53,127 bases of DNA, taken from assembly GCA_017427485.1 (NCBI GenBank), contig JAFRSR010000203.1, positions 1 to 53,127 on the forward strand, in the 5' to 3' direction. Made by a program: the position numbers and the translations under genes. Of this stretch, positions 31,711 through 44,226 are shown in pieces. Position 1 is the first letter of the stretch; the number at the start of each line of letters is the position of its first letter. The notes beneath the pieces were generated by a model. It had not been told where the DNA came from. It did no database searches and was given only the letters and a program-made list of their open reading frames with translations. This DNA comes from Kiritimatiellia bacterium. GTDB taxonomy: Bacteria; Verrucomicrobiota; Kiritimatiellia; RFP12; UBA1067.

Positions 31711-34700
31711 CTACCTGATGATGATCACTGCACGGATGGCGCTGGGGTTGGCAAGGCGGAGCTTGCCGTCTTCCACCGTCAGCGAGATGATGTCCGCGTA
31801 GTCGTTCCCGGCGGCGTCGGTGACCGTCAGCGCCACGTCGCCCACCGTCTCCGCCGTGAGGCCGAGCGCGTCCGAAAGCTCGTAGCGGCCCTTCGTGGGC
31901 TTGGCGTCGAACGTCACTTCCAGCTTTTTCAGGCCGGCAAGCGCGTTCGAATCCGCGTCGGCGAACGTCACAGCGTTGAGGGAGATGTCTCTGCTGGCGC
32001 CTGTCACCTCCCAGCAGTTGTCCTCGCCCGTGAAGCGGAACGGACCCGAGAGCGTGCCGGTGCCCTTCAGCGTACCGTAGATCGGGCACCAGCCGCCTTT
32101 TTGCGGCGCGTTCGTGAGGGACGATCCGGCGGCGAGCTCGATCTCGCCGCTGAGGCCGGGCCGCTCGAACTTCTGCGCGACGCCCGTCGTGTACGCGATC
32201 GGCAGGTACCGCTCGTCGAACGAATGGTTCGCGCCGTCGCCCACGCGGAACATGAGCGCGCAGGTGTTGTTGTCGGCGTCGGTGAGCATTCCGCCCGAAG
32301 TGGCGGTCGTGTTGGTCGCGTTGTTGCCCACGCGGACGTCGAACTTGTGCCAGCCCTCGGTCAGCGTCATGCGGGCGCTGACCTGCGCGTCGTTGGCGGT
32401 CGCGGCGAAGAGCCGGCGGCCGTCGACGTCGAGCGCGATCTGGTTGCCGTACTTGCCGGTGAACGTCCACTGCCCCTCGTTCTCCTTCTCCACCTTGAAG
32501 TAGCCGTCGAAGCGGCCCACGCCGCCGCCGTTCGGCGCGTTGACGCCGGTCGCGTAGCTGGCGTGGAGCGCCGCCAGGGTGTTCGTGATCGTGTCGCGGG
32601 CGGCGAACTTGCTCTCGTCGCACGTGGCGTACACGCCGAGGTTGTCGCCCGGGTGGTCGTACTTGCGCCACCGCACGCTCGTGCGCGCGCCGAGGTGCTG
32701 GCGCATGCGCATCGGGACGGTGGTGGAGTCGAACACGGTGTAGGCGGTGTCGCCGGGCGCCTTGTACCTGATCGCGTCGGCGCCGCTGTAGGGTCCGATC
32801 TGGGGATTGTTCCCGCCCGTGTAGACGGAGACCATGAACTTGTGCCATCCCGCAGTCAGCGCCTTGGTCACGGTCGTGTCTTTGTTCGCCCCGGGATTGG
32901 AAAGCTCGGTGTCGTCGATCATGATGCCGAAGTGCGTCTTGGCATAGTGGTTGAAGGTCCACGTTCCCGCCTGCGCCTCGCTCACGTAGAACTCGCCGAA
33001 GTAGTTGAAGCCGGAGCCGTTTCCGTCTTTCCTGTCCCTGATCGCCGACGCCGTGCGGTTGAAGAACGTGAGCGACGTCGCGACGTGCGACGACATCGGC
33101 ACGTCTGCGGCGAAGCGCGGGCGCATGATGTTCCAGGCGTTGTCGTGCCACGTCCAGGCGACGAACTCGACCAGGCTCGTTCCGGCGATGTCGAGCGTGG
33201 CCGCCGCGTTCTCCCCGAGCGAAAGCCCGCCCGCGAAGCCCGCCGCGTTGCTGAGGTCGACCCCGCCCGTCGCGTTCACCGTCCACTTGCCGGTCGGAAC
33301 GCCCTGGATGCCGGGACGGTCCGGCGAGAACGACCCCGCGCCCGTGAGCGTCACGTCGCTCGCGCCGTTGAGGCCCGTGCCCCACGTCACCGTCTTGCCG
33401 TTCAGGTCGAACGTCACGCGGCCGCCCTTCTTCGGGCTGCCGAAGGACGCCGTCATGCCGGCCTTGCCGATGTAGAAGCTGTCGGTCGCGCGCAGCGTGC
33501 CGCTCTCCATGTTGAACACGGTGCGCATCGGGTCGATCCACTCCTCGCTGATGCCGTTCGAGCCCACTTCGAGGAGACCGTCCCTGAAGGTCAGCGCGCC
33601 CGCGTAGTAGTTCGTCGACACCCAGTTGGCGAAGAGTCCCTTGGTGGCGATGTGCGTGTTCTCGCCCGTGACGGTCAGCTCGCCGCGTCCGTTGACGGTG
33701 CCGACCTGGAAGGTGGTCGCGGAGACCACGAGGTCGTTCATGTGGACGTCCACGATCGGGCCGCCGTGCTTGGACTTGACGTTCTGCCCCTGCGAGCAGA
33801 AGTTGGCGAGCGGCCCGGAAACCGTCATTCCGTCGATGGAGCCCGACGCCGCCGAATGCAAGTAGAGGGTACCGGTATGTCCGCTCGCCACCGTGACGGA
33901 CAGCTTGTTCTTCCCGAACTTCGGCATTCCGTATCCGTCGTTGTTGGCGCCGACCACGAGCGAGCCGCCGCCGGTGAGCGTCACCGCAAGCGCAGCGTTG
34001 CCCCAGTCGGAGCGACCGGAGAGCCAAAGCTGCCCGCCCGTCACCTCGGCGCGCGAATCGCCCGTCACGGTCCACGGATACCAGTAGAGGTTGCCGTTCG
34101 ACTTGAGGAGCGGATTGCCCACGTTCACCGCGTCTCCGTGCAGATAGTGGTTGCCGTTGGAGCGGTTGATCGTTCCGGCGTTCACCACGCCGTTGCTGTA
34201 GACCGTCGTGCCGCCGCCAAGCAGCGTGAGCGTCGCGCCGGCGGACACGTTGAGCGGCGCCTTGATGTACGCGGTCGTGGAGCTGTGGTCGTTGCCCAAC
34301 TGCGCGTTCGAGCCGTACGCGGTGATGGCGTTCACGTTCCACGTGCCGTTTCCGCCGTAGAACTTCAGAACGCCGTAGAGGTCGAAGCCGTGCGGGACGT
34401 CAATTGTCAGCGAGGTTCCCTCGAACTTCATCTTGCCCTCATCAGGGATGATGACCTTTCCGACGGAGATTGCGGTGTTGACGCCGAAACCGTAGCCACG
34501 ATTCATCTTCACGGTGAGCGCGACGTTGGTCGGCCCCGTGACGGCGTTTTTCCGTATCTCAAGCCGGCCAGGTCCGCCAATCGACGCGTCGCCCGTCAGC
34601 TCGACGCCGCCGCTCAGGGCGTTGTTCCAGGCCGTGGCGGTGGAGGACGAGATGAGCGCGCCCTGCCCGTCGGGGCCGTCGCCCTCGATGACGAACTTCT

Positions 34701-37700
34701 TCTTGCTGGTGATCAGGGCGCGCGGACGGTCCGAGCCGCCGGTCGTGTCGGTGTAGTTCACGTCGAACTGCGCGCCGTTCTTGACGGTGATCGTGCCGTT
34801 GTCCATGCCCGCCGCACCCGTGACGGCGTCGTCGCCGATCTTCACCGTGCCGCCCTCGACGTCGATATTGGGCGTCTCGGCGAGCACGCCCGCCTCGAGC
34901 GTGAGCGTGCCCGTGCCCTGCTTCACGAGCCGCTTGGACGCGATCGAGCCCGTGCCGCCGAGCGTGTAGTCCTCGGCCGCGTCGAACCTCACCTGCTCCG
35001 TCGCGACGCTCTCCGGCACCTGCACGGACGCGACCTTCGTCGCCTCATGTCCGTCGAAGAGGGCCGACCATGCGGGATTGAACGCGACGGGCGAGCCCGC
35101 GCCGTTCTGCAGCCACGCGACGGACGTCCAGACGTCGCCCGACGTCTGCGGACGCCACACGCCCTCGCTGTAGGCGAACGGGTCGCTCACGCCGCCCGCC
35201 GCGCTCACGTTCTCGCTGTTCACGCTCGAGAAGCGGAAGTACCACGTCTCGCCAGTCGTGATGCCCGTCGCCGTGGCCGTCAGCGCGCCGGTCTCCGCGA
35301 CGACGCCCAGGTTCGTGGAGCCCGCCACCGTCGCGAACGCGGGGTCGGTGGACCATTCAAGCGTGACGGTCGCCGAATCCGCGCCCACGCCGAAGTTCAC
35401 GACCTCGCCCGTCACCCTCGCCGCGCCGCCGCCTTCCGCCGCGACGCCGTCGACGCGCACGAACGCCGCGTCCGCCGGCACGTCCGCCGCCGTCCAGATC
35501 TCGATCCTCGCCACCTCGTAGGCGAGGCTCGACATCCTCTCGCGCGTGTTCGCGTCGCCCATCCACGTGTAGTCGATGGACTTGCCTTGATGCGAGAAGT
35601 TGCCGATGCCGATTTCGTAACAGTCCGAACCGGTCCAGCGGTTGAACGCGAACATGACCATCGCTGGATTCGCCGCGCCGGGCGTGAAGCGGTGCACCTG
35701 CATGGTGCCATAGCCGCTCATGTTGTTCGAGCGCTTGTCGTTCCAGTCGCACCGGAACGTCTTGGCCGGCGCGTCGATAAGTCCGCTTGGATCGGTGCCG
35801 TACGTACTCGGCCAGAACTCGATCCAGCCGCGCACGTCGTTCGCGTCGGCGGAAGTCGACTCGACGCCGGGCATGTTCGTCTTCACGCGCAGGCGGCTCA
35901 CGACGCGCTGGTTGACGGTCGTGAGCGGGATGCCCACGTCGTCGAGCGTGCAGCTGCCGAACGCGTCCATCGACACCCAGATCCAGCGCGTCAGCCCGTG
36001 GTAGGCGTCGAGCGCGGTGTCCCTGCGCTTCAGCTCGATGTAGTAGCCGACGCGGGAGATGTTCGCCGTGGGCGCCGCGTCGTTCACGACGGAGTACGGC
36101 ACGTGGCCGAGCGTCGCCAGGCTGGTGCCGCCGTTCGCCGCGATGTCGAACACGCGGGCGCGCGTCATGCCCGCGAGGTACTCGGCGGGGACGTTGTTCT
36201 CGCAGCCGCTCGTCGTCTCGGTGACGGTCTCCTGCGCGCCGAGCTCGAATCCGGGATCGTCCGCGATCGCGCCGAGGATGGCGGCGCAGTAGACGTCCGC
36301 CATCTTGTCCTCGCCCGGCCAGTCGGGATGGAGGTTCGTCTCGGCGAGGAAGCTGCCGACGATGTAGTTGCCGCCCGCGTCGTAGCGGTAGCACGGCGTG
36401 TAGAGGTCGGCGAAGTACGTGCGCTTCGCGGGGAACATCGCGCTCGCGATGGCGTTGCTGATCGCCGCGTTGAACGCAACCACCTGCGCGTTCTTCGCCT
36501 CGCTGTACGCGATGTCCACCACCGCGCCCGCGATGAACTTCACGTGCGGCTTCTGGTTCAGCGCCTTCCACACGAGGTTCGTCCACACGGGGAACAGCTC
36601 CTCGGCGGTGGAGCCGTTGGCGTTGATGTCGTTCGTGCAGATCTTGGCGAGGATGAAATCGACGTCGCCCGCGCAGTCGAGCATCGTCTCGATCGCGTCG
36701 ATCGTGCCGCCGCCGTTCTTCGTGACGAGGCGCTGCCCGCTGATGCCGGAGTGCCACACCCACTCGTCGGGCATCACCGCGCCGCAGATGTCGGCGCTGT
36801 GGACGTTCCAGTGGCCCTTCGCGACGGGCGCGTACCCGGCGGCGGCGAGCTTCTTCATGAGGCCGGTGCGCCAGTTGCCGTAGGACGTGTCGCTGCCCTG
36901 CGTGATGGAGTCGCCCGTGCAGAGGATGTTGATGCGCTGCTTCGGCGCGGCGTAGTCGAGGTCGAGCCAGAGGCGTCCGCCGCCCGCCTCGAGGTTCTCG
37001 GCCCACACCTTCACGTCCGCGCCCTGCGCGCTCGACGCGTCGAAGATCGCGTTGAGCGCGGCGGCGTCCATGTCGAGCGCGCCGTGGTCCCACGTCATCA
37101 GCAGGAAGCGCCCCTTCGTGTTCGCCGCGTACTTGGGCGCGAGCGCGATCTTCGCGCCCGAGGCGAACGTGGGCGGCGCGACGAGCCGGAAGGTGAACTT
37201 CGTGGGATCGTAGACGAGCTTACCGGTGGCGCCCATGTCAAGCGTGGAGAGGTAGAAGCCGCCCACCTCCGGGAAGGTGGCCGTGCCGTCCATGAGAAGC
37301 GTCGTGGTGGGGAGCGAGACGGGATCGTAGCCGACGTACGTGAACGTCGGGGTCGCGCCGTCGGGGACGAGGATCGTGCTGCCGGCGAGCGACGCGGCGG
37401 GCGTCCCGTCCTTCGCCCAGTTGCCGACGGCGGCGAACGCCGCGTCCGTCGCGCCCGTCCAGGCGTAGTCCGCCATGCCGGCGCGCGTGGGCGTTGCCGC
37501 GTACTTCACCCAGAAGTCGATGCGGATGAAGGAGTAGGCGTGGCCGGAGATGTTGGCCGCGTCGCTGGTGGTGCTGCCGTAGACGAACGTCCAGTCGAGC
37601 GACTTGGACGTCGTATAGCCGCCCGCGCCGTAGTTGGCGAGCGTCCCCATGCCGATCGCGTTGTTGGCCCCCGAGGTGTTGCCCCAGTTGCTGTAGCCGA

Positions 37701-40700
37701 AGAGCGTTTCATACGCCGGGAATGCGTTGGCGTCCGCGAACTTGCGGAAGACCTGGAAGCTGCCGTGGCCGTTCGCGCCGGAGGTGTTCAGCGTGTCGTT
37801 GATGCCATACGCGTTTTTCCACGGCTCAGACGCCACGTCATCCCCCGTTCTGTCGCTGCCGTTGTAACTGCCCGGCCCCCACTCGATGTAGCCCTCCACC
37901 GTATCGTCGTCCGCCGCCACCTGCGAGATGCCGCCGAAGTTGCTCCACACGTGGAGCTTCGTGACGGACTGCTGCTTGCGCTGCGCGTACGTGACGGGGA
38001 ACGCGACGTCCGCCCACGTGGGGCCGGGCGCGTCCATGTCCACCCACAGCGCCTGCAGCGCGCCCGTGTCCCTGCGCACGAGCTCGATGTAGTAGCCCGC
38101 CCTCTCGATGCCGGTCTCCTGCATCGCCGGGGCATAGGCGTAGGGAATCGCGTAGAGGTCCTGCGCGTATCCCTGCGAGGACGTCGGCTCGATGGACCTG
38201 ACGCGCGTGAACCCGGCCAAGTAGGCGGCCGGGACGTTGTTCTCCGCGCCGAGCGTGACCGTCGGACGCGTCCAGGACGAAGGATTGTTCTTGCCGTTCG
38301 CCGTCGCGAGCGTCACCAGCTTCGCCTTGATCGCCGCCGCCACCGCGTCGCACTGTGCCTGCGTCTGCGACGAGGTGATGAGTCCGGCGACGTCGACCGC
38401 CTCCACGTCCGCCTCCGTGCCGCACCACGCCGCGATGTCCGCGTTGAGCGCCGCCGACCCGCCGGGGATCGTGCAGGCGAGGACGGTCGTCATCGGGAGC
38501 GCCGCCTTGATGCGCGTCACGGCGTTGGTGTAGTTCGCGAAAATCCTGTCGTCCGCCACGCCGTCGGCCGCGTCTCTGTCGCCGCACAGGAGCACGGTGA
38601 AGTCAGGCTCGCCCGCGGCGGCGCAGTACGTCTCGAGTCCTTCGAGAAGACCGGCGCGGGTGGCGGAGGTCTTGAGCGCAAGGTCGGCCACCCCCGCGTG
38701 GCGCTTCCACGCCTCGTTGGCGGTACAGAGCCCGCTCGCGTTCGCCGTGCGCCAGCCGGTCATCGTGACGTTCCACCCCTCCTGCGCGAGGAGCGCGCCG
38801 AGCGAAGAACGGTAGCAGTTTCCGTTCGCGCCATACACGAGCGTGCCGCCCACATTCCAGATCTTGATCGGATTCAGCTCCGTGACCGCCGGCGGCACCG
38901 TGTGCAGCGTCACGGTGCCGGACTCGAACGTCACGTAGCTGTCGTAGGGGCATCCCGTCACGGCTACGCCGCCCGCGCCCGTGTGCGTGATCGCGCCGGC
39001 GGAGAGGAGCGTCACGTCCGTGCCCGCGGCAGGGGCGGACGCGCCCGAGTAGAGATCGGTCAGGTCGAACGTCAGCGTCGCCGCGATGTCGAGCGTTCCG
39101 GCCATCGTGCCGAACGGAAGCGGCTTCGTATAGGTCGATGCGGCCGTGACGCTCAACTTGCTCTTCGCGCTGTCGAGAAGAGTGCCGCCCTCGTCGATCG
39201 TCAACTTCGTCACCTTGAACGGCGTGGCGTTCGTGCACCTGGTCATGTCGAGCGTCCCGCCCGCGTGGATCGTCACGGGGACGGATTGCGACGAGATCGC
39301 CTTCTCCGGTACGGCACCCGAACTGCGCGACGAGCTCATCACCACGGTACCGCCGAAGATCTCCGCGCCGCCGTCCATGCGCTGGTCGGTGTGGTTGTTC
39401 GCGATCGTGAGCGTGCCCGCGCCCATCTTGACGAGTTTGGGATACGTGCCGTTGCTGGTGATCGGCGGATAGATGAAGACGTTCCCCGTCTCGTTGGAGA
39501 CCAGCACCGTATCCGCCACGTAGACCCACCTGACGTCGTTTATCCGCCCCACTTCGCCGGAGCCGAGGATGCTGAGATCCTGCATCCGCGTGCACTGGTA
39601 TCCCTCTTCGAAATAGCCGCCGTTCGTGAGGGTGATCGACTTCACGTTGGTCGCATTTGCCGGACTGTTGCCGTTGGTAGACTGGCGGAAACGGGAATTG
39701 GCGCCGTCAATGAGGAAATCCACGTCCGTGAGGTTCACGGCGTTCCTGTGGAAGTGGACGACGCCGCTCGTGACGTGGACCGTTCCGGGCGTGCTGCCGG
39801 ACGTGTTGCAGATCCAGAAGGACTTGCCGGAGTTCAAGGCGAGCGTGAGCGTGTGGCCGTTCAGCTGCAGCGTGGTCGCAGGGTAGTTGGGCGCGATGAG
39901 GCCCTGGCTGCCGCCGGTGACCTTCGCGTCCGCCGTCAGCTCGAGGCCGTACATCTGCGAGACGTTGTTGCCCACGTCGCCGCCCGTGTTGCGCAGCGCG
40001 CCGTTGCCGTCGGGGCCTGTTCCGGCGATCTTGTAGCGGACGGCGTTCCCGCTCCCGCGGCCGGACACGTCAAGCGCCGCTCCGTCCTTCACCTCCACCG
40101 TCATGCCGTTGTTCCCAAAGACCGTCGTCGTGCCATACTGCACGAGGCCCTCCGCCACCGTGGCGCCGGCCAGGCTCGACAGCACGCACGACAGGACGAG
40201 CGTGCCGGGGCCGTCCTTGACGAGGTGCGCTGCGGCGCTGAACGGGGCAGAGAGGTTAAGGACGCTGGTCGCGTTCGCCGAAACGGTGACGCGGAACGTG
40301 CCCGAATCGCCCGTCACCGAGATGTTCCGCGCGGCGAAGTCGGCACAGTCCGCCACGTGCAGGGCGTGTCCGTTGAGGTTCACCGTGCCGCCTTCGGCGA
40401 TGCCGTCCTTCAGGTCGGCCCACTCGGTGTCGGCGGAAAGCGCCACGTACTGCGGCAGGCCCGCGCCGGCGGGCGCGCCGGACGACGAGCCGACGAGTTG
40501 CGGCGACACGGAGACGACCCACGCCTGACGTGCAGCCGCCGCGCCCATCGTGAAGTTGGTCGTTGTCACGTTCTCGTACACCACGCCGTTCGCGCGGTCG
40601 AAGAGCGCGCCCTTCCCCGCGGCGGTCTGCACCGGCACGAGGTCGCGCACCACAAGGCCGCCGTCCTTCACCAGCATCGAGTCGAAGCGGAACTTCGCGT

Positions 40701-42267
40701 TGTTCGAGTCCCCTCGGTGAGCGCCGAACACGCAGAGGTCGATGAGCGGAAAGGCCGTGAGGTTTTCCGTGTTGACGGCCGTGACGCCGCCGCCTTCAAG
40801 CGAGACCTTGCCGCCGGCTATGATGCGGCAGCGGTAGTCGGTTCCAGCCGCAGGGGGGATTCCGGCGAACGTGGCACCGCTGCCGTGGAAGCGGAAGGTG
40901 TCTGACTGCATGTTGAAGAGGTAGGCGTTGCCGCTCCAGTGCTGGCCGAAAAATACCTTTGAATGCTCGTATGTGACGTCGCCGAAGCGGAGATCCGTCG
41001 TCGTGTCGGTGCCGGGCACGTAGTCGAGGCGAACCATCTGCGTGCCGACGGACGTGATGGAAACGAGTTCCGAGGCGTAGGGCAGCTCGCCCGTCTTCGC
41101 GAGGAAGAAGCGGAAATAGACGCCGTCCGCCTTCAGCGCGGCGGGGAGCGTGTAGACGTAGGACGTCGCATCGGCGGCGATCGTCGCGACTTCCGCGAAG
41201 TTGTCCCAGGCGTTCTTCCGGTCCTCGCAGTCGGTTGCGCCGTACGCGACATAGAGCTTGTGCGGTTCGGCGCCGAGGTTGGCGAAGGAGAGCGTCACCG
41301 CGTCGGCCGTCGCGGGAGCGACGGAGATGGCGGGACGGAAGCGGAACGTGGGCGTCTCGTCCATCACGCGGCCGAACCGGCCCTGCGGTAGCTCGTCGCC
41401 CGTCTGGAACGGCGTCGCCGTCTGGTTCGGGTAAAAGACGTCATGCACCTGGTCGTAGAGGCCGACGTCCCCCGCCGCATTCGCCGCCGGCACGAAGTCG
41501 AAGAGCGGCGTGTAGCTGGCGGCGATCTTCATGCGGTAGAACGTGTAGGCGCCGGCATGTCCGCCAGAGTAGTCGGAGAAGATCGCGAAACTGTTGCCGA
41601 CGGACCCCTGCCGGCTGATGTTCTTGCGCGCCTCCGATCCGCCGCCCGTGAGCGTCAGGTAGTTAGACGGATCGATCACCAGCCGGTAGTCCGTGTTCGC
41701 GGCAGGCGTGATGCCGGAGACGGCCTGGGGCGAGCTGCCGTAGAACCTGAACTCGCCGCCCTGCAGGATGAACAGGTATTGGCTGCCACCCCACTTCTGC
41801 CCGAAGAACGTCTTGTCGTTCGCGATGGCTCCGGTCTTGAAACGGAAATCCATGATCCAGATGTTTGTGGCCGCCATGCCGGTGCTGATCCACTGCGCGC
41901 CGGTCGACGTGATGGACGAGAACTCCCTCGCCATGTGGACGCCGACAGTCTGCATCAGGAAGAAGCGCATCGGCCGTCCGTCGCGCAGCGCGGCCGGGAC
42001 TTCATACGTGAACGAAGTCTGGTCGCAGGCGATGTCGGCGATCTTCTCGAAGGAGTCCCACTTCGCCTTGTCGTCGCCGCCGTCCGTCGCGCCGTGTGCG
42101 AGGAACAGCTCGTAGTCGAGCTCGTCGACGCCGCCGAACGCGAGCGTGACCGCGTTGTCGGTCTGCTCCGACACGCACACCGTGCGCGCGGCGTGCGCGC
42201 CACAGGCAATTCCCACCGCAAACGCCAGCGCGGCGGCGGCCTTGACCGTCGATTTAATCATGGACAT
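31711..42267 (-). CDS. giant exported protein: PATR repeats, two SGNH-like domains, PA14-like modules
   Basis: The 3518-residue protein has a signal peptide (SMIKSTVKAAAALAFAVGIACGAHA). Two copies of a beta-sandwich module follow (about 28-305 and 306-590; compare VTLAFGGVDELDYELFLAHG with VTLSFANLGAEPHKLYVAYG). PATR-type beta-solenoid follows, then a degenerate SGNH domain near 1132-1330 where GDS reads GGT. After a sandwich domain comes an intact SGNH hydrolase near 1775-2010, with CTGDSITQG, ICTNDIN and NLHPDWPG. A second copy of the sandwich (NNVPAEYLAGMTRARV) and a long beta-solenoid follow. Two PA14-like modules (about 3030-3360) precede the end RAVIIIR. It probably deacetylates or binds glycans at the surface. 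AAGGA lies 6 nt before the ATG. Confidence 0.8.
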   Translation of the reverse strand: MSMIKSTVKAAAALAFAVGIACGAHAARTVCVSEQTDNAVTLAFGGVDELDYELFLAHGATDGGDDKAKWDSFEKIADIACDQTSFTYEVPAALRDGRPMRFFLMQTVGVHMAREFSSITSTGAQWISTGMAATNIWIMDFRFKTGAIANDKTFFGQKWGGSQYLFILQGGEFRFYGSSPQAVSGITPAANTDYRLVIDPSNYLTLTGGGSEARKNISRQGSVGNSFAIFSDYSGGHAGAYTFYRMKIAASYTPLFDFVPAANAAGDVGLYDQVHDVFYPNQTATPFQTGDELPQGRFGRVMDETPTFRFRPAISVAPATADAVTLSFANLGAEPHKLYVAYGATDCEDRKNAWDNFAEVATIAADATSYVYTLPAALKADGVYFRFFLAKTGELPYASELVSITSVGTQMVRLDYVPGTDTTTDLRFGDVTYEHSKVFFGQHWSGNAYLFNMQSDTFRFHGSGATFAGIPPAAGTDYRCRIIAGGKVSLEGGGVTAVNTENLTAFPLIDLCVFGAHRGDSNNAKFRFDSMLVKDGGLVVRDLVPVQTAAGKGALFDRANGVVYENVTTTNFTMGAAAARQAWVVSVSPQLVGSSSGAPAGAGLPQYVALSADTEWADLKDGIAEGGTVNLNGHALHVADCADFAARNISVTGDSGTFRVTVSANATSVLNLSAPFSAAAHLVKDGPGTLVLSCVLSSLAGATVAEGLVQYGTTTVFGNNGMTVEVKDGAALDVSGRGSGNAVRYKIAGTGPDGNGALRNTGGDVGNNVSQMYGLELTADAKVTGGSQGLIAPNYPATTLQLNGHTLTLALNSGKSFWICNTSGSTPGTVHVTSGVVHFHRNAVNLTDVDFLIDGANSRFRQSTNGNSPANATNVKSITLTNGGYFEEGYQCTRMQDLSILGSGEVGRINDVRWVYVADTVLVSNETGNVFIYPPITSNGTYPKLVKMGAGTLTIANNHTDQRMDGGAEIFGGTVVMSSSRSSGAVPEKAISSQSVPVTIHAGGTLDMTRCTNATPFKVTKLTIDEGGTLLDSAKSKLSVTAASTYTKPLPFGTMAGTLDIAATLTFDLTDLYSGASAPAAGTDVTLLSAGAITHTGAGGVAVTGCPYDSYVTFESGTVTLHTVPPAVTELNPIKIWNVGGTLVYGANGNCYRSSLGALLAQEGWNVTMTGWRTANASGLCTANEAWKRHAGVADLALKTSATRAGLLEGLETYCAAAGEPDFTVLLCGDRDAADGVADDRIFANYTNAVTRIKAALPMTTVLACTIPGGSAALNADIAAWCGTEADVEAVDVAGLITSSQTQAQCDAVAAAIKAKLVTLATANGKNNPSSWTRPTVTLGAENNVPAAYLAGFTRVRSIEPTSSQGYAQDLYAIPYAYAPAMQETGIERAGYYIELVRRDTGALQALWVDMDAPGPTWADVAFPVTYAQRKQQSVTKLHVWSNFGGISQVAADDDTVEGYIEWGPGSYNGSDRTGDDVASEPWKNAYGINDTLNTSGANGHGSFQVFRKFADANAFPAYETLFGYSNWGNTSGANNAIGMGTLANYGAGGYTTSKSLDWTFVYGSTTSDAANISGHAYSFIRIDFWVKYAATPTRAGMADYAWTGATDAAFAAVGNWAKDGTPAASLAGSTILVPDGATPTFTYVGYDPVSLPTTTLLMDGTATFPEVGGFYLSTLDMGATGKLVYDPTKFTFRLVAPPTFASGAKIALAPKYAANTKGRFLLMTWDHGALDMDAAALNAIFDASSAQGADVKVWAENLEAGGGRLWLDLDYAAPKQRINILCTGDSITQGSDTSYGNWRTGLMKKLAAAGYAPVAKGHWNVHSADICGAVMPDEWVWHSGISGQRLVTKNGGGTIDAIETMLDCAGDVDFILAKICTNDINANGSTAEELFPVWTNLVWKALNQKPHVKFIAGAVVDIAYSEAKNAQVVAFNAAISNAIASAMFPAKRTYFADLYTPCYRYDAGGNYIVGSFLAETNLHPDWPGEDKMADVYCAAILGAIADDPGFELGAQETVTETTSGCENNVPAEYLAGMTRARVFDIAANGGTSLATLGHVPYSVVNDAAPTANISRVGYYIELKRRDTALDAYHGLTRWIWVSMDAFGSCTLDDVGIPLTTVNQRVVSRLRVKTNMPGVESTSADANDVRGWIEFWPSTYGTDPSGLIDAPAKTFRCDWNDKRSNNMSGYGTMQVHRFTPGAANPAMVMFAFNRWTGSDCYEIGIGNFSHQGKSIDYTWMGDANTRERMSSLAYEVARIEIWTAADVPADAAFVRVDGVAAEGGGAARVTGEVVNFGVGADSATVTLEWSTDPAFATVAGSTNLGVVAETGALTATATGITTGETWYFRFSSVNSENVSAAGGVSDPFAYSEGVWRPQTSGDVWTSVAWLQNGAGSPVAFNPAWSALFDGHEATKVASVQVPESVATEQVRFDAAEDYTLGGTGSIASKRLVKQGTGTLTLEAGVLAETPNIDVEGGTVKIGDDAVTGAAGMDNGTITVKNGAQFDVNYTDTTGGSDRPRALITSKKKFVIEGDGPDGQGALISSSTATAWNNALSGGVELTGDASIGGPGRLEIRKNAVTGPTNVALTVKMNRGYGFGVNTAISVGKVIIPDEGKMKFEGTSLTIDVPHGFDLYGVLKFYGGNGTWNVNAITAYGSNAQLGNDHSSTTAYIKAPLNVSAGATLTLLGGGTTVYSNGVVNAGTINRSNGNHYLHGDAVNVGNPLLKSNGNLYWYPWTVTGDSRAEVTGGQLWLSGRSDWGNAALAVTLTGGGSLVVGANNDGYGMPKFGKNKLSVTVASGHTGTLYLHSAASGSIDGMTVSGPLANFCSQGQNVKSKHGGPIVDVHMNDLVVSATTFQVGTVNGRGELTVTGENTHIATKGLFANWVSTNYYAGALTFRDGLLEVGSNGISEEWIDPMRTVFNMESGTLRATDSFYIGKAGMTASFGSPKKGGRVTFDLNGKTVTWGTGLNGASDVTLTGAGSFSPDRPGIQGVPTGKWTVNATGGVDLSNAAGFAGGLSLGENAAATLDIAGTSLVEFVAWTWHDNAWNIMRPRFAADVPMSSHVATSLTFFNRTASAIRDRKDGNGSGFNYFGEFYVSEAQAGTWTFNHYAKTHFGIMIDDTELSNPGANKDTTVTKALTAGWHKFMVSVYTGGNNPQIGPYSGADAIRYKAPGDTAYTVFDSTTVPMRMRQHLGARTSVRWRKYDHPGDNLGVYATCDESKFAARDTITNTLAALHASYATGVNAPNGGGVGRFDGYFKVEKENEGQWTFTGKYGNQIALDVDGRRLFAATANDAQVSARMTLTEGWHKFDVRVGNNATNTTATSGGMLTDADNNTCALMFRVGDGANHSFDERYLPIAYTTGVAQKFERPGLSGEIELAAGSSLTNAPQKGGWCPIYGTLKGTGTLSGPFRFTGEDNCWEVTGASRDISLNAVTFADADSNALAGLKKLEVTFDAKPTKGRYELSDALGLTAETVGDVALTVTDAAGNDYADIISLTVEDGKLRLANPSAIRAVIIIR

Positions 42268-42328
42268 AAGGCATCCTTTCTTGAAAACGGTTACTTAATT
42301 ATTGCAAAGCATGATCCAAGATGGCGTA

Positions 42329-42357
42329 ATCATACCATATCCCGGCCTCCCCCGCAA
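42329..42357 (-). promoter_or_regulatory. promoter of the giant protein gene
   Basis: On the minus strand TTGCGG (42357-42352) and TATGAT (42334-42329) are 17 bp apart with GATATGG before the -10. The sequence from the -10 onward, TATGATTACG, matches the core of the 16-bp repeats in the same intergenic region. Confidence 0.6.
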
Positions 42358-42461
42358 GCCGAATGTGACATTCCGGTGACATTCGGCACCGGCAACAACA
42401 ACTGTACGACATAGGGACGATAAAGACCCATCTGCAGTTCGCCCGCAAGTACACACATCCC

Positions 42462-42635
42462 GTTCCGCACCGTAATCTTGCCAATCGAAATCCCGCAATC
42501 TGTTCCGCACCGTAATCTTATCTCGGCCTCACTATCCCACGGCCCGCACCATAATTGTACGCCCACTCCCGCCATGTTCCGCATCGTAATATTATTGCTC
42601 CGTAATCCATGTCATGCTCCGCTCCGTAATCCTAC
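42462..42635. repeat. left array of GTTCCGCACCGTAATC repeats
   Basis: Clear copies start at 42462 and 42502. Degenerate copies lie at about 42541, 42576 and 42616, mostly 35-40 bp apart, with a partial copy near 42595. All read in the same direction on the plus strand. The rest of the 42268-42763 gap carries the giant gene's promoter and no supported gene. Confidence 0.75.
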
Positions 42636-42763
42636 CGATTATTCAAGTCTTCACCAGAAAACACCCATGCCAGATGGCAAGGGAACCCTCGCTCTTTCTG
42701 TTTAAGTACATGGCACCTACACGCCAAGGCCAGGTCGTGCGTTTCACTCAAGCAGGAAAGGCG

Positions 42764-43855
42764 TCAGGCTACGCGGCGACGAAGCAGCCAACAGATGACG
42801 TTCTTTGGAATACGCGGACAGCCGGGCTTACGCACGTAGCCTTCCCCGTTCACGGGAATGCAGTCGGGGTCGAGTCGTAGCGCGAGCGAGGCCTCAAGCG
42901 AAATGAGCGTCCCCTCGCATTGCCCCAGTATCTCCTGCGCGGTTTTGCGGGCACGGACCAGATTCGCCTGCAGACCGTCCGAAGCGACGACGGGAACCGC
43001 CGCCCGGGACGGGGCCGCATCGGCGGGGGCGGCATCGGCAGGCGTTTCCGCAGACGATGGTGCTGAAGCGACGGACATGGACCCGGGCGGCGGGTCGGGC
43101 GTGACGACTGCCGCCTCCGGCGCAGGCAGGAGCATCGCGGGCGGTACGGGCTCGCCCGAGCCACACGCCTGGCGGAACCGCTTCGCCAACGCCTTGTAGC
43201 GCATGATGGTTGAGTACTTCTCAAAGAGGTCGGGCGCCTCGCGTTGGAACAGGCGCTTGATGCCGCCCTTGCGCCCCACAATCCGCCCCTGTCCGTCGAA
43301 CCGGAGGGTATTGTCGACGAAGCACTCAAGGTCCTCCAGGAGCGAACCGAGCCGAAGCGCCGCCTCGGGCGAACCGCGCGCGGTATGAAGCGCCGCACGG
43401 ATCGCGTCAAAAGTCGGGCGCGGGTTCAGCGTGTGGTGCCTGCGTACCTCGCGCCGTGCGTCGGCGAGCTTCCGGCGCCGCTCGCGCTCCTTCTCGTAGT
43501 ACGTCGGACGTCGTAGTCTCTTGACAAAAAGCGAGAGCCGCCGATAGAGGAACGTCGCCAGCGTGTACACGCCGAAAAGTGCGGCTAGGGCCAAAAACAG
43601 GGACACCTTCTGTTCAAACGTGCGCGCGTTACGCCTGAAAAAACCCTCCAGCGTGCGCGGGACGTGCCCGATGGTGTGGCCGTTCTTGTACGCCTCGTAC
43701 CAGAACGTCCGCCGATAGCTCTCCGAGTCAAGACGCAGCACGTGCACGAGAAAGCCGTCTATGAGGCTCTCGAACGTGATCGGCGTGGGATCGGCAGGCG
43801 GCCGCATGACGCGGCAGCCCTTGCTTTCCAGATACTCTTCTACGGCTTTTCGCAT
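42764..43855 (-). CDS. unrecognised membrane protein flanked by inverted repeat arrays
   Basis: I do not recognise this 363-residue protein. Residues 84-104 (VSLFLALAALFGVYTLATFLY) form one membrane segment, followed by a basic coiled region (YYEKERERRRKLADARREVRRHH). A well-ordered block at about 177-230 includes CFVDNTLRFDGQGRIVGRKGG, IKRLF and YSTIMRYKALAKRFRQ. It looks like a conserved, possibly nucleic-acid-binding domain. An Ala/Pro-rich linker (about 233-290) leads to a C-terminal helix and basic end (WLLRRRVA). The N-terminal 80 residues carry no signal peptide. The gene stands alone between two arrays of one 16-bp repeat in opposite orientation (42462-42635 and 44010-44103). A repeat-like copy with a -10-type TAAGAT (43891-43886) precedes the start. 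Function unknown. Confidence 0.6.
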   Translation of the reverse strand: MRKAVEEYLESKGCRVMRPPADPTPITFESLIDGFLVHVLRLDSESYRRTFWYEAYKNGHTIGHVPRTLEGFFRRNARTFEQKVSLFLALAALFGVYTLATFLYRRLSLFVKRLRRPTYYEKERERRRKLADARREVRRHHTLNPRPTFDAIRAALHTARGSPEAALRLGSLLEDLECFVDNTLRFDGQGRIVGRKGGIKRLFQREAPDLFEKYSTIMRYKALAKRFRQACGSGEPVPPAMLLPAPEAAVVTPDPPPGSMSVASAPSSAETPADAAPADAAPSRAAVPVVASDGLQANLVRARKTAQEILGQCEGTLISLEASLALRLDPDCIPVNGEGYVRKPGCPRIPKNVICWLLRRRVA

Positions 43856-43885
43856 GTTGTGGCCCTTCTTTGTCCCGACGCCGTA

Positions 43886-43914
43886 ATCTTACCATGTTCG
43901 CCGCCAGGGGAATA
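43886..43914 (-). promoter_or_regulatory. weak promoter-like site of the membrane protein gene
   Basis: On the minus strand TAAGAT (43891-43886) is preceded by ATGG and followed by TACGGCG, as in the giant gene's promoter. The -35 candidate TATTCC is poor. Confidence 0.3.
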
Positions 43915-44009
43915 GAGGGTAAACTGTCAAAAGAATTCAACAGAAATGTAGCGAAATGGATACAAATGCGGCATGGCCGCGATCTTCTGTCGAAGGTGGC
44001 CATCTATGC

Positions 44010-44103
44010 GATTACGGTGCGGAACACCGAAGTGTAGTTGGGAATATGATTACGGTGCGGAACGGGAGAAGGGGCAAGACCCCGTAAGATTACGGTGCGG
44101 AAC
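44010..44103. repeat. right array of GATTACGGTGCGGAAC repeats
   Basis: Three exact copies of GATTACGGTGCGGAAC lie at 44010-44025, 44048-44063 and 44088-44103, 38 and 40 bp apart. They are the reverse complement of the left array, so the two arrays point away from the gene between them. Confidence 0.85.
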
Positions 44104-44143
44104 GGGGGAATGACCGGTCATCGGCCATTACTTGAAATCCCCC

Positions 44144-44226
44144 ATTAAATGCTACCGATCAGGTTAAATGTTGATGTTGCCGATCAAGTTAAATGTTACA
44201 AAGCAAGTTAAATGCTACCGATTAGG
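44144..44226. repeat. four-unit TTAAATG/CCGAT tandem repeat
   Basis: Units of 19-25 bp carry TTAAATG(C/T)T followed, in three of four, by (A/G)CCGAT. They begin at about 44144, 44163, 44188 and 44207. The last unit overlaps the 3' end of the small hydrophobic ORF. Confidence 0.7.

Follow-up and report, generated by a model that had tools for sequence, protein, structure and literature searches.

What ties a single gene to two inverted arrays of a short repeat is the question raised by a stretch of DNA of 53,127 nucleotides (the window; contig 144 of a 446-contig, 6.3-Mb rumen Kiritimatiellae genome). A sequence-only reading had described a 16-bp repeat to the left of the gene and three exact reverse complements of it to the right. 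In agreement with this description, the 16-mer GTTCCGCACCGTAATC occurs exactly at 42462 and 42502 on the forward strand and at 44010, 44048 and 44088 on the reverse strand, with copies carrying two mismatches at 42576 and 42616. Allowing up to three mismatches, the window contains eight matches against 0.58 expected, and the maximum in 100 shuffles was two. A weight matrix located a fifth left copy at 42541, which gives arrays of five copies on the left and three on the right. The conserved word is about 20 bp long (GTTCCGCACC[GA]TAATC[GT][CT]A[CT]), and its two outermost copies are perfect inverted repeats of each other over 21 bp, with the left arm at 42459..42479 (+) and the right arm at 44086..44106 (-).

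The enclosed gene (42764..43855, -) encodes a protein of 363 aa, P0001. The three exact copies on the right (44010..44103, -) have the same sense as the gene and form its upstream (5') array, ~155-250 bp 5' of the start codon; the five left copies (42462..42631, +) have the opposite sense and form the downstream (3') array. Read 5' to 3', the array copies point inwards to the enclosed gene, and the earlier description of the arrays as outward-facing was wrong. A weak, degenerate site with the core CCGTAATCTTACC lies just upstream of the start codon (43873..43888, +); its score in the window is under the matrix threshold, and it is present at the same position in the close homologues L035, L037 and L049 with four mismatches. 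The start-to-start pitch is 35-40 bp in the left array and 38-40 bp in the right one, and the 84 spacings measured across all related arrays have a median of 38 bp. The spacers are mutually unrelated (mean identity 0.326 vs 0.317 for shuffled sequences), which bears out the spacing of about 40 bp and the unrelated spacers noted before; in related arrays they are C-rich on the motif strand. The 20-bp word is non-palindromic, its folding energy of -0.3 kcal/mol is no better than that of shuffles, and there is no match in Rfam.

The surroundings of the unit contain further repeats and a large reading frame. Just outside the right array, a second, AT-rich repeat resembling TTAAATGCTACCGATCAGG is present in 3-4 copies (44145-44226), other short repeats were seen outside the arrays in L086, L078 and L049, and a 24-nt word in the right flank of the unit in L086 (10700-10724) recurs at dozens of scattered positions in the genus. 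To the left, an open reading frame of 3518 aa (31711-42267, -) starts ~190 bp from the left array. The orthologue in genome G005 has a completely different left flank from about window position 42384 on, 75 bp beyond the outermost site.

P0001 comprises a hydrophobic segment, a long helix following it, a DNA-binding-like core and a C-terminal region. The membrane span given in the sequence-only reading is also predicted here, at residues ~84-103 (VSLFLALAALFGVYTLATFL; 43547..43606, -), with a hydropathy of 2.06 over 19 residues and a helix in the model; 56 of 91 homologues have a hydrophobic segment ahead of the core. The conserved core, residues 141-247 in the alignment of homologues (43115..43435, -), was modelled by AlphaFold2 as a small helical domain with one beta hairpin (pLDDT 90.5, pTM 0.81). 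Comparison of this model with solved structures (PDB; Foldseek/VIA) gave no significant match (best Foldseek E 1.6, best Z 4.1), which by itself does not prove a new fold. The family could not be placed in the sequence-only reading, and it likewise has no match in Pfam, NCBIfam, PHROGs, PADLOC or the PDB sequences. Neither sequence nor fold searches found a recombinase, a nuclease or a known DNA-binding domain, and a DUF3102-like helix-turn-helix, suspected by eye, is supported by neither Pfam nor the fold searches. Five charged residues of the core, D175, E177, D181, R195 and K221, are strictly conserved. For P0001, dN/dS is 0.20-0.22 against its orthologue and paralogues; values of 0.11-0.24 were obtained at three loci orthologous between genomes G223 and G235, and 0.15-0.35 between other copies. 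The family copies are intact and, judged by these ratios, under purifying selection.

Inverted arrays were found around all seven close homologues for which both flanks are available (the window, L031, L032, L033, L034, L035 and L040), with 3-9 same-sense copies upstream and 2-8 opposite-sense copies downstream. Several partial close homologues have an array on the one side covered, and a partial homologue, G013 C59, has none in its available downstream sequence; some family loci are cut by contig ends. The expectation that homologues carry flanking repeats thus holds at 7/7 loci with both flanks and fails at this partial one. Pattern searches of whole genomes, allowing one mismatch to the 16-mer, returned 25-72 sites per genome in six genomes of the same genus with a close homologue, as compared to 0-9 in ten without; the reversed 16-mer gave 0 in all sixteen. 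Together with the seven pairs of arrays, these counts uphold the proposed link between repeat and protein family. Between orthologues in two genomes the spacers are conserved, contrary to the idea that they vary between strains, and the visible change is one 40-bp repeat-plus-spacer unit missing in G005.

More distant homologues (30-45% identity) have single sites and no arrays. The 5' site abuts the -35 element of a near-leaderless promoter, and an inverted copy is located either within the 3' end of the coding region or beyond it; some lineages have this second site ~200 nt inside the coding region. A simple k-mer search had left these homologues without sites, a result overturned by the matrix and by an own-pair test, in which the 5' region of each gene was matched without gaps to the reverse-complemented 3' region of the same gene and the best match scored. 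An inverted score of at least 13 was reached by 39 of the 72 genes, compared to 30 of the 424 mismatched pairs, and in direct orientation by 11 of 72 against 3 of 424; as the tested genes are related, neither these counts nor the G223 and codon counts given below are independent events. The words differ by lineage and are matched at both ends (e.g. GAGAATTAGTCCGAACCATATTCTC; GATTTCGTACGCACCGTAATCTCATT; GCGATATCAAGG). In G223, a genome-wide search with the word of that genome (CGCGATATCAAGGAA) listed 100 sites, 24 of them near a family core, and all 24 share one geometry: 13 same-sense sites lie 305-323 nt before the core, and 11 opposite-sense sites 527-545 nt after the core start. One 3' site sits in Glu-Ile-Thr codons, with the Ile encoded by ATT in 14 of 15 (related) genes, compared to 34 of 134 elsewhere; this site within coding sequence is conserved at the DNA level. 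Going by these comparisons, the arrays of the window's clade are the multi-site form of an ancient site pair of the family. The two sites are unlikely to pair in the mRNA because the 5' site of the distant homologues precedes the predicted transcription start; an RNA element was rejected on the same ground and for the missing Rfam match.

In an even sample of the phylum the family is present in 19 of 388 genomes, all of them in the window's class, Kiritimatiellae. There are 4 copies in the window genome, 19 in G112, 44 in G235 and 68 in G223, and few copies of the gene are decayed. A 98%-identical homologue was found in a Kiritimatiellae bacterium from goat omasum, and other homologues in rumen genomes labelled Lentisphaerae. 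Viral contigs, phages and plasmids contained no relative, so that a phage or plasmid origin was dismissed, and since no neighbour gene recurs around the family loci, a paired partner gene was ruled out.

What paralogues within a genome have in common begins at the 5' site and ends near the stop codon or at the last 3' site, between flanks that are unrelated (identities of 87-93% for L104/L105/L107, 93% for L092/L093, 95% for L132/L133 and 82% for L145/L146). The sharp 5' end at a site is informative because a longer duplicated flank would still be alignable at 95% identity. Occupancy differs between genomes: a unit is present at G006 C219, whereas the same flanks are 82 bp apart in G005 C157, and the latter also lacks ~240 bp that adjoin the 5' array in the former. 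At G006 C346 two sites remain as a relic of a locus that carries the whole unit in G000 C445, and at G011 C183 the homology of the host gene to four other genomes stops exactly at the outermost site. No target duplication was seen at the few junctions inspected by eye, and no clean empty site defines the ends; no locus comparison yields a clean insertion footprint because the flanks are also rearranged. At the window locus no footprint can be read, since a different neighbour lies 3' of the saccharopine dehydrogenase gene in each related genome.

Many sites, both in the window genus and in G223, are solo, i.e. have no family gene nearby; in G223 this applies to 76 of the 100 listed sites. The proposal that every occurrence neighbours a homologue is therefore not tenable. 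A repeat scattered without link to the family, named in the sequence-only reading as evidence against it, is found in part, as the solo sites are many. Most of the G223 solo sites (e.g. L232-L251) are followed by CCATGAA at a constant distance of 57 nt; the interior is variable, and no conserved open reading frame comes after this motif. This fixed distance despite variable DNA in between points to a function at these sites, as far as their sequences can tell. In the window genus, some solo sites lie upstream of promoter-like (TATAAT-like) boxes and others within coding sequence; the inspected loci did not reveal a coherent set of target genes. Several solo sites cluster upstream of promoter-like boxes in L072 (6219-9499) and L082 (4834, 6699), where the surrounding genes resemble, by eye, an AbiE-type toxin-antitoxin pair. 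Site-like words also lie over the start codons of secreted-protein genes (MRLRFGT...) in L077 (4722, 5435), L028 and L030, perhaps a coding coincidence.

A comparable layout is known from REPtrons (TnpA-REP/RAYT with REP), in which one gene is bordered by inverted recognition sequences and cognate repeats are also scattered, with repeat abundance tied to the gene and the gene conserved like a housekeeping gene (PMC8266576). TnpA-REP is a HuH enzyme, mostly in single copy, that acts on palindromic REPs with a GTAG tag (PMC8266576). The window family is similar in that its gene is bordered by cognate repeats, which are scattered genome-wide with an abundance tied to the gene, and in that the gene is conserved like a housekeeping gene. 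In contrast to TnpA-REP, the protein and its relatives have no HuH (Y1) match in Pfam, NCBIfam or PHROGs, the word is non-palindromic with no stable fold and no GTAG in its consensus, and the gene reaches 68 copies. Membership in the REP/RAYT group was rejected for the missing HuH domain and the missing palindromic, GTAG-tagged REP.

Insertion sequences are resembled as well, and also Tn7 and Mu, which have several end-binding sites: a single gene has inverted, lineage-matched ends, is multi-copy with differing occupancy and carries several sites per end. The terminal inverted repeats and the sharp-ended copies at unrelated loci, whose flanks are partly rearranged, are features of insertion sequences. 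Unlike these, the family has no match to DDE, DEDD, HuH, serine or tyrosine transposase profiles, no target duplication was seen at the few junctions inspected, the copies are kept by purifying selection and the 3' site is often intragenic. The lac and gal systems are looping autoregulators with an operator at the promoter and an intragenic one, and the family is like them in that one site adjoins the promoter and a second lies within the gene or downstream of it; in distant homologues a cognate site is present at the own promoter, as in autoregulatory DNA-binding regulators. Operators are not known, however, to delimit a dispersing unit or to occur as inverted arrays with up to nine copies. 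Judged from profile searches, the unit resembles a REPtron or an insertion sequence in layout and lacks the known enzymes of both.

With about even confidence, we favor a dispersing single-gene unit whose new DNA-binding protein recognizes inverted sites around its own gene and probably regulates itself by bridging them. The unit would disperse in genomes of the class Kiritimatiellae and encode a new DNA-binding protein family, in which a hydrophobic segment often precedes the core. Such a protein would recognize a ~20-bp site that is inverted on both sides of its own gene, with the 5' copy beside the promoter and the other either inside the 3' end of the coding region or just behind it; in the clade of the window, the two sides would each have expanded into arrays of 2-9 sites, one per ~38-40 bp. 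Most likely, the protein would bind and bridge both sides and in this way control its own promoter, and the same sites would delimit the unit whenever it is copied to a new place. Binding of the sites by the protein is predicted from their co-variation and geometry, and we infer bridging, autoregulation and membrane anchoring along with DNA binding. The inverted sites, their co-variation with the protein lineage, the DNA-level conservation of one intragenic 3' site, the unit-wise duplication and the differing locus occupancy were all obtained by computation. The dispersing unit is favored by the 7/7 inverted arrays together with a site abundance that tracks the close homologue, by the lineage-matched words (39/72 vs 30/424) and the single geometry in G223, by the 5' site abutting the -35 element and the ATT bias in the 3' site, and by sharp-ended paralogues, differing occupancy, 68, 44 and 19 copies and non-recurrent neighbors. 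Counting against it are the absence of a recombinase, nuclease or known DNA-binding domain among the matches, of a target duplication at the few junctions inspected and of a clean insertion footprint; intact copies with dN/dS of 0.11-0.24, closer to kept genes than to ordinary insertion sequences; a 3' site ~200 nt inside the gene, which suits an operator better than a terminus; and the many solo sites, the missing downstream array of G013 C59 and the cuts at contig ends. Of the three possibilities raised in the sequence-only reading, a mobile and a self-regulating unit are supported by the lineage-matched sites, the unit-like paralogues and their occupancy, and the recognition system, taken as CRISPR-like, is not.

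A new insertion sequence is a possible but doubtful alternative: the protein would be a transposase of an unseen catalytic type, the inverted sites and arrays its ends, and the solo sites relics or miniature derivatives. The perfect 21-bp outermost inverted repeat, the lineage-matched unit ends that are sharp at a site, the up to 68 copies, the occupied, empty and relic loci, and the strictly conserved D175, E177, D181, R195 and K221 would all suit such an element, while the absent transposase family or fold match, the lack of a target duplication at the inspected junctions, the strong purifying selection at fixed loci with few decayed copies, and the 3' site often lying within the gene argue against it. 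Equally tentative is a new class of mobile element, in which a mobility protein of unseen fold and chemistry would recognize inverted arrays at both ends of the gene that encodes it, with tens of conserved copies and seeded solo sites in one bacterial class.

Rather unlikely, in our estimate, is an immobile family of DNA-binding autoregulators that may be anchored in the membrane. The promoter operator and a second operator within or behind the gene would form a repression loop, the solo sites would be regulon promoters and the copies would have arisen by ordinary duplication. The position of the 5' site directly upstream of the -35 element, the second site kept at the DNA level within coding sequence and the purifying selection agree with this, as do several solo sites upstream of TATAAT-like boxes and the fixed 57 nt to CCATGAA in G223. 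Unit-wise duplication with abrupt ends and unrelated flanks, up to 68 copies and differing occupancy go beyond ordinary paralogy, however, and the inspected loci show no coherent target genes. The hydrophobic segment in 56/91 homologues and the sites scattered on both strands in genomes with the gene could also fit a protein of chromosome organization or segregation that tethers both the arrays and the scattered sites to the membrane, comparable to Noc/ParB-type systems, which use scattered sites. We regard this as very improbable: the gene is multi-copy and absent from most relatives and hence not housekeeping, a ParB/Noc domain is missing, and the sites, few in number, are concentrated at the gene. 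A CRISPR-like recognition array, suggested by repeats whose unrelated spacers are similarly long, is in our view next to impossible. It is refuted by the spacers shared between orthologues in two genomes; in addition, the repeats are degenerate and inverted around one gene, neither the protein nor its nearest annotated neighbors match Cas-like or defence families, and Rfam gave no match.

If the dispersing unit is real, an undescribed family, its core predicted with confidence and unmatched among solved folds, would join the few proteins that spread together with the sites they recognize around their own gene. Dozens of co-varied protein/site pairs would then offer a readable recognition code, and the family would allow a test of how a unit multiplies to 68 copies with nearly all of them intact and under selection. 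Such a unit may also explain why rumen Kiritimatiellae genomes show repeated breaks in assembly and rearrangements.
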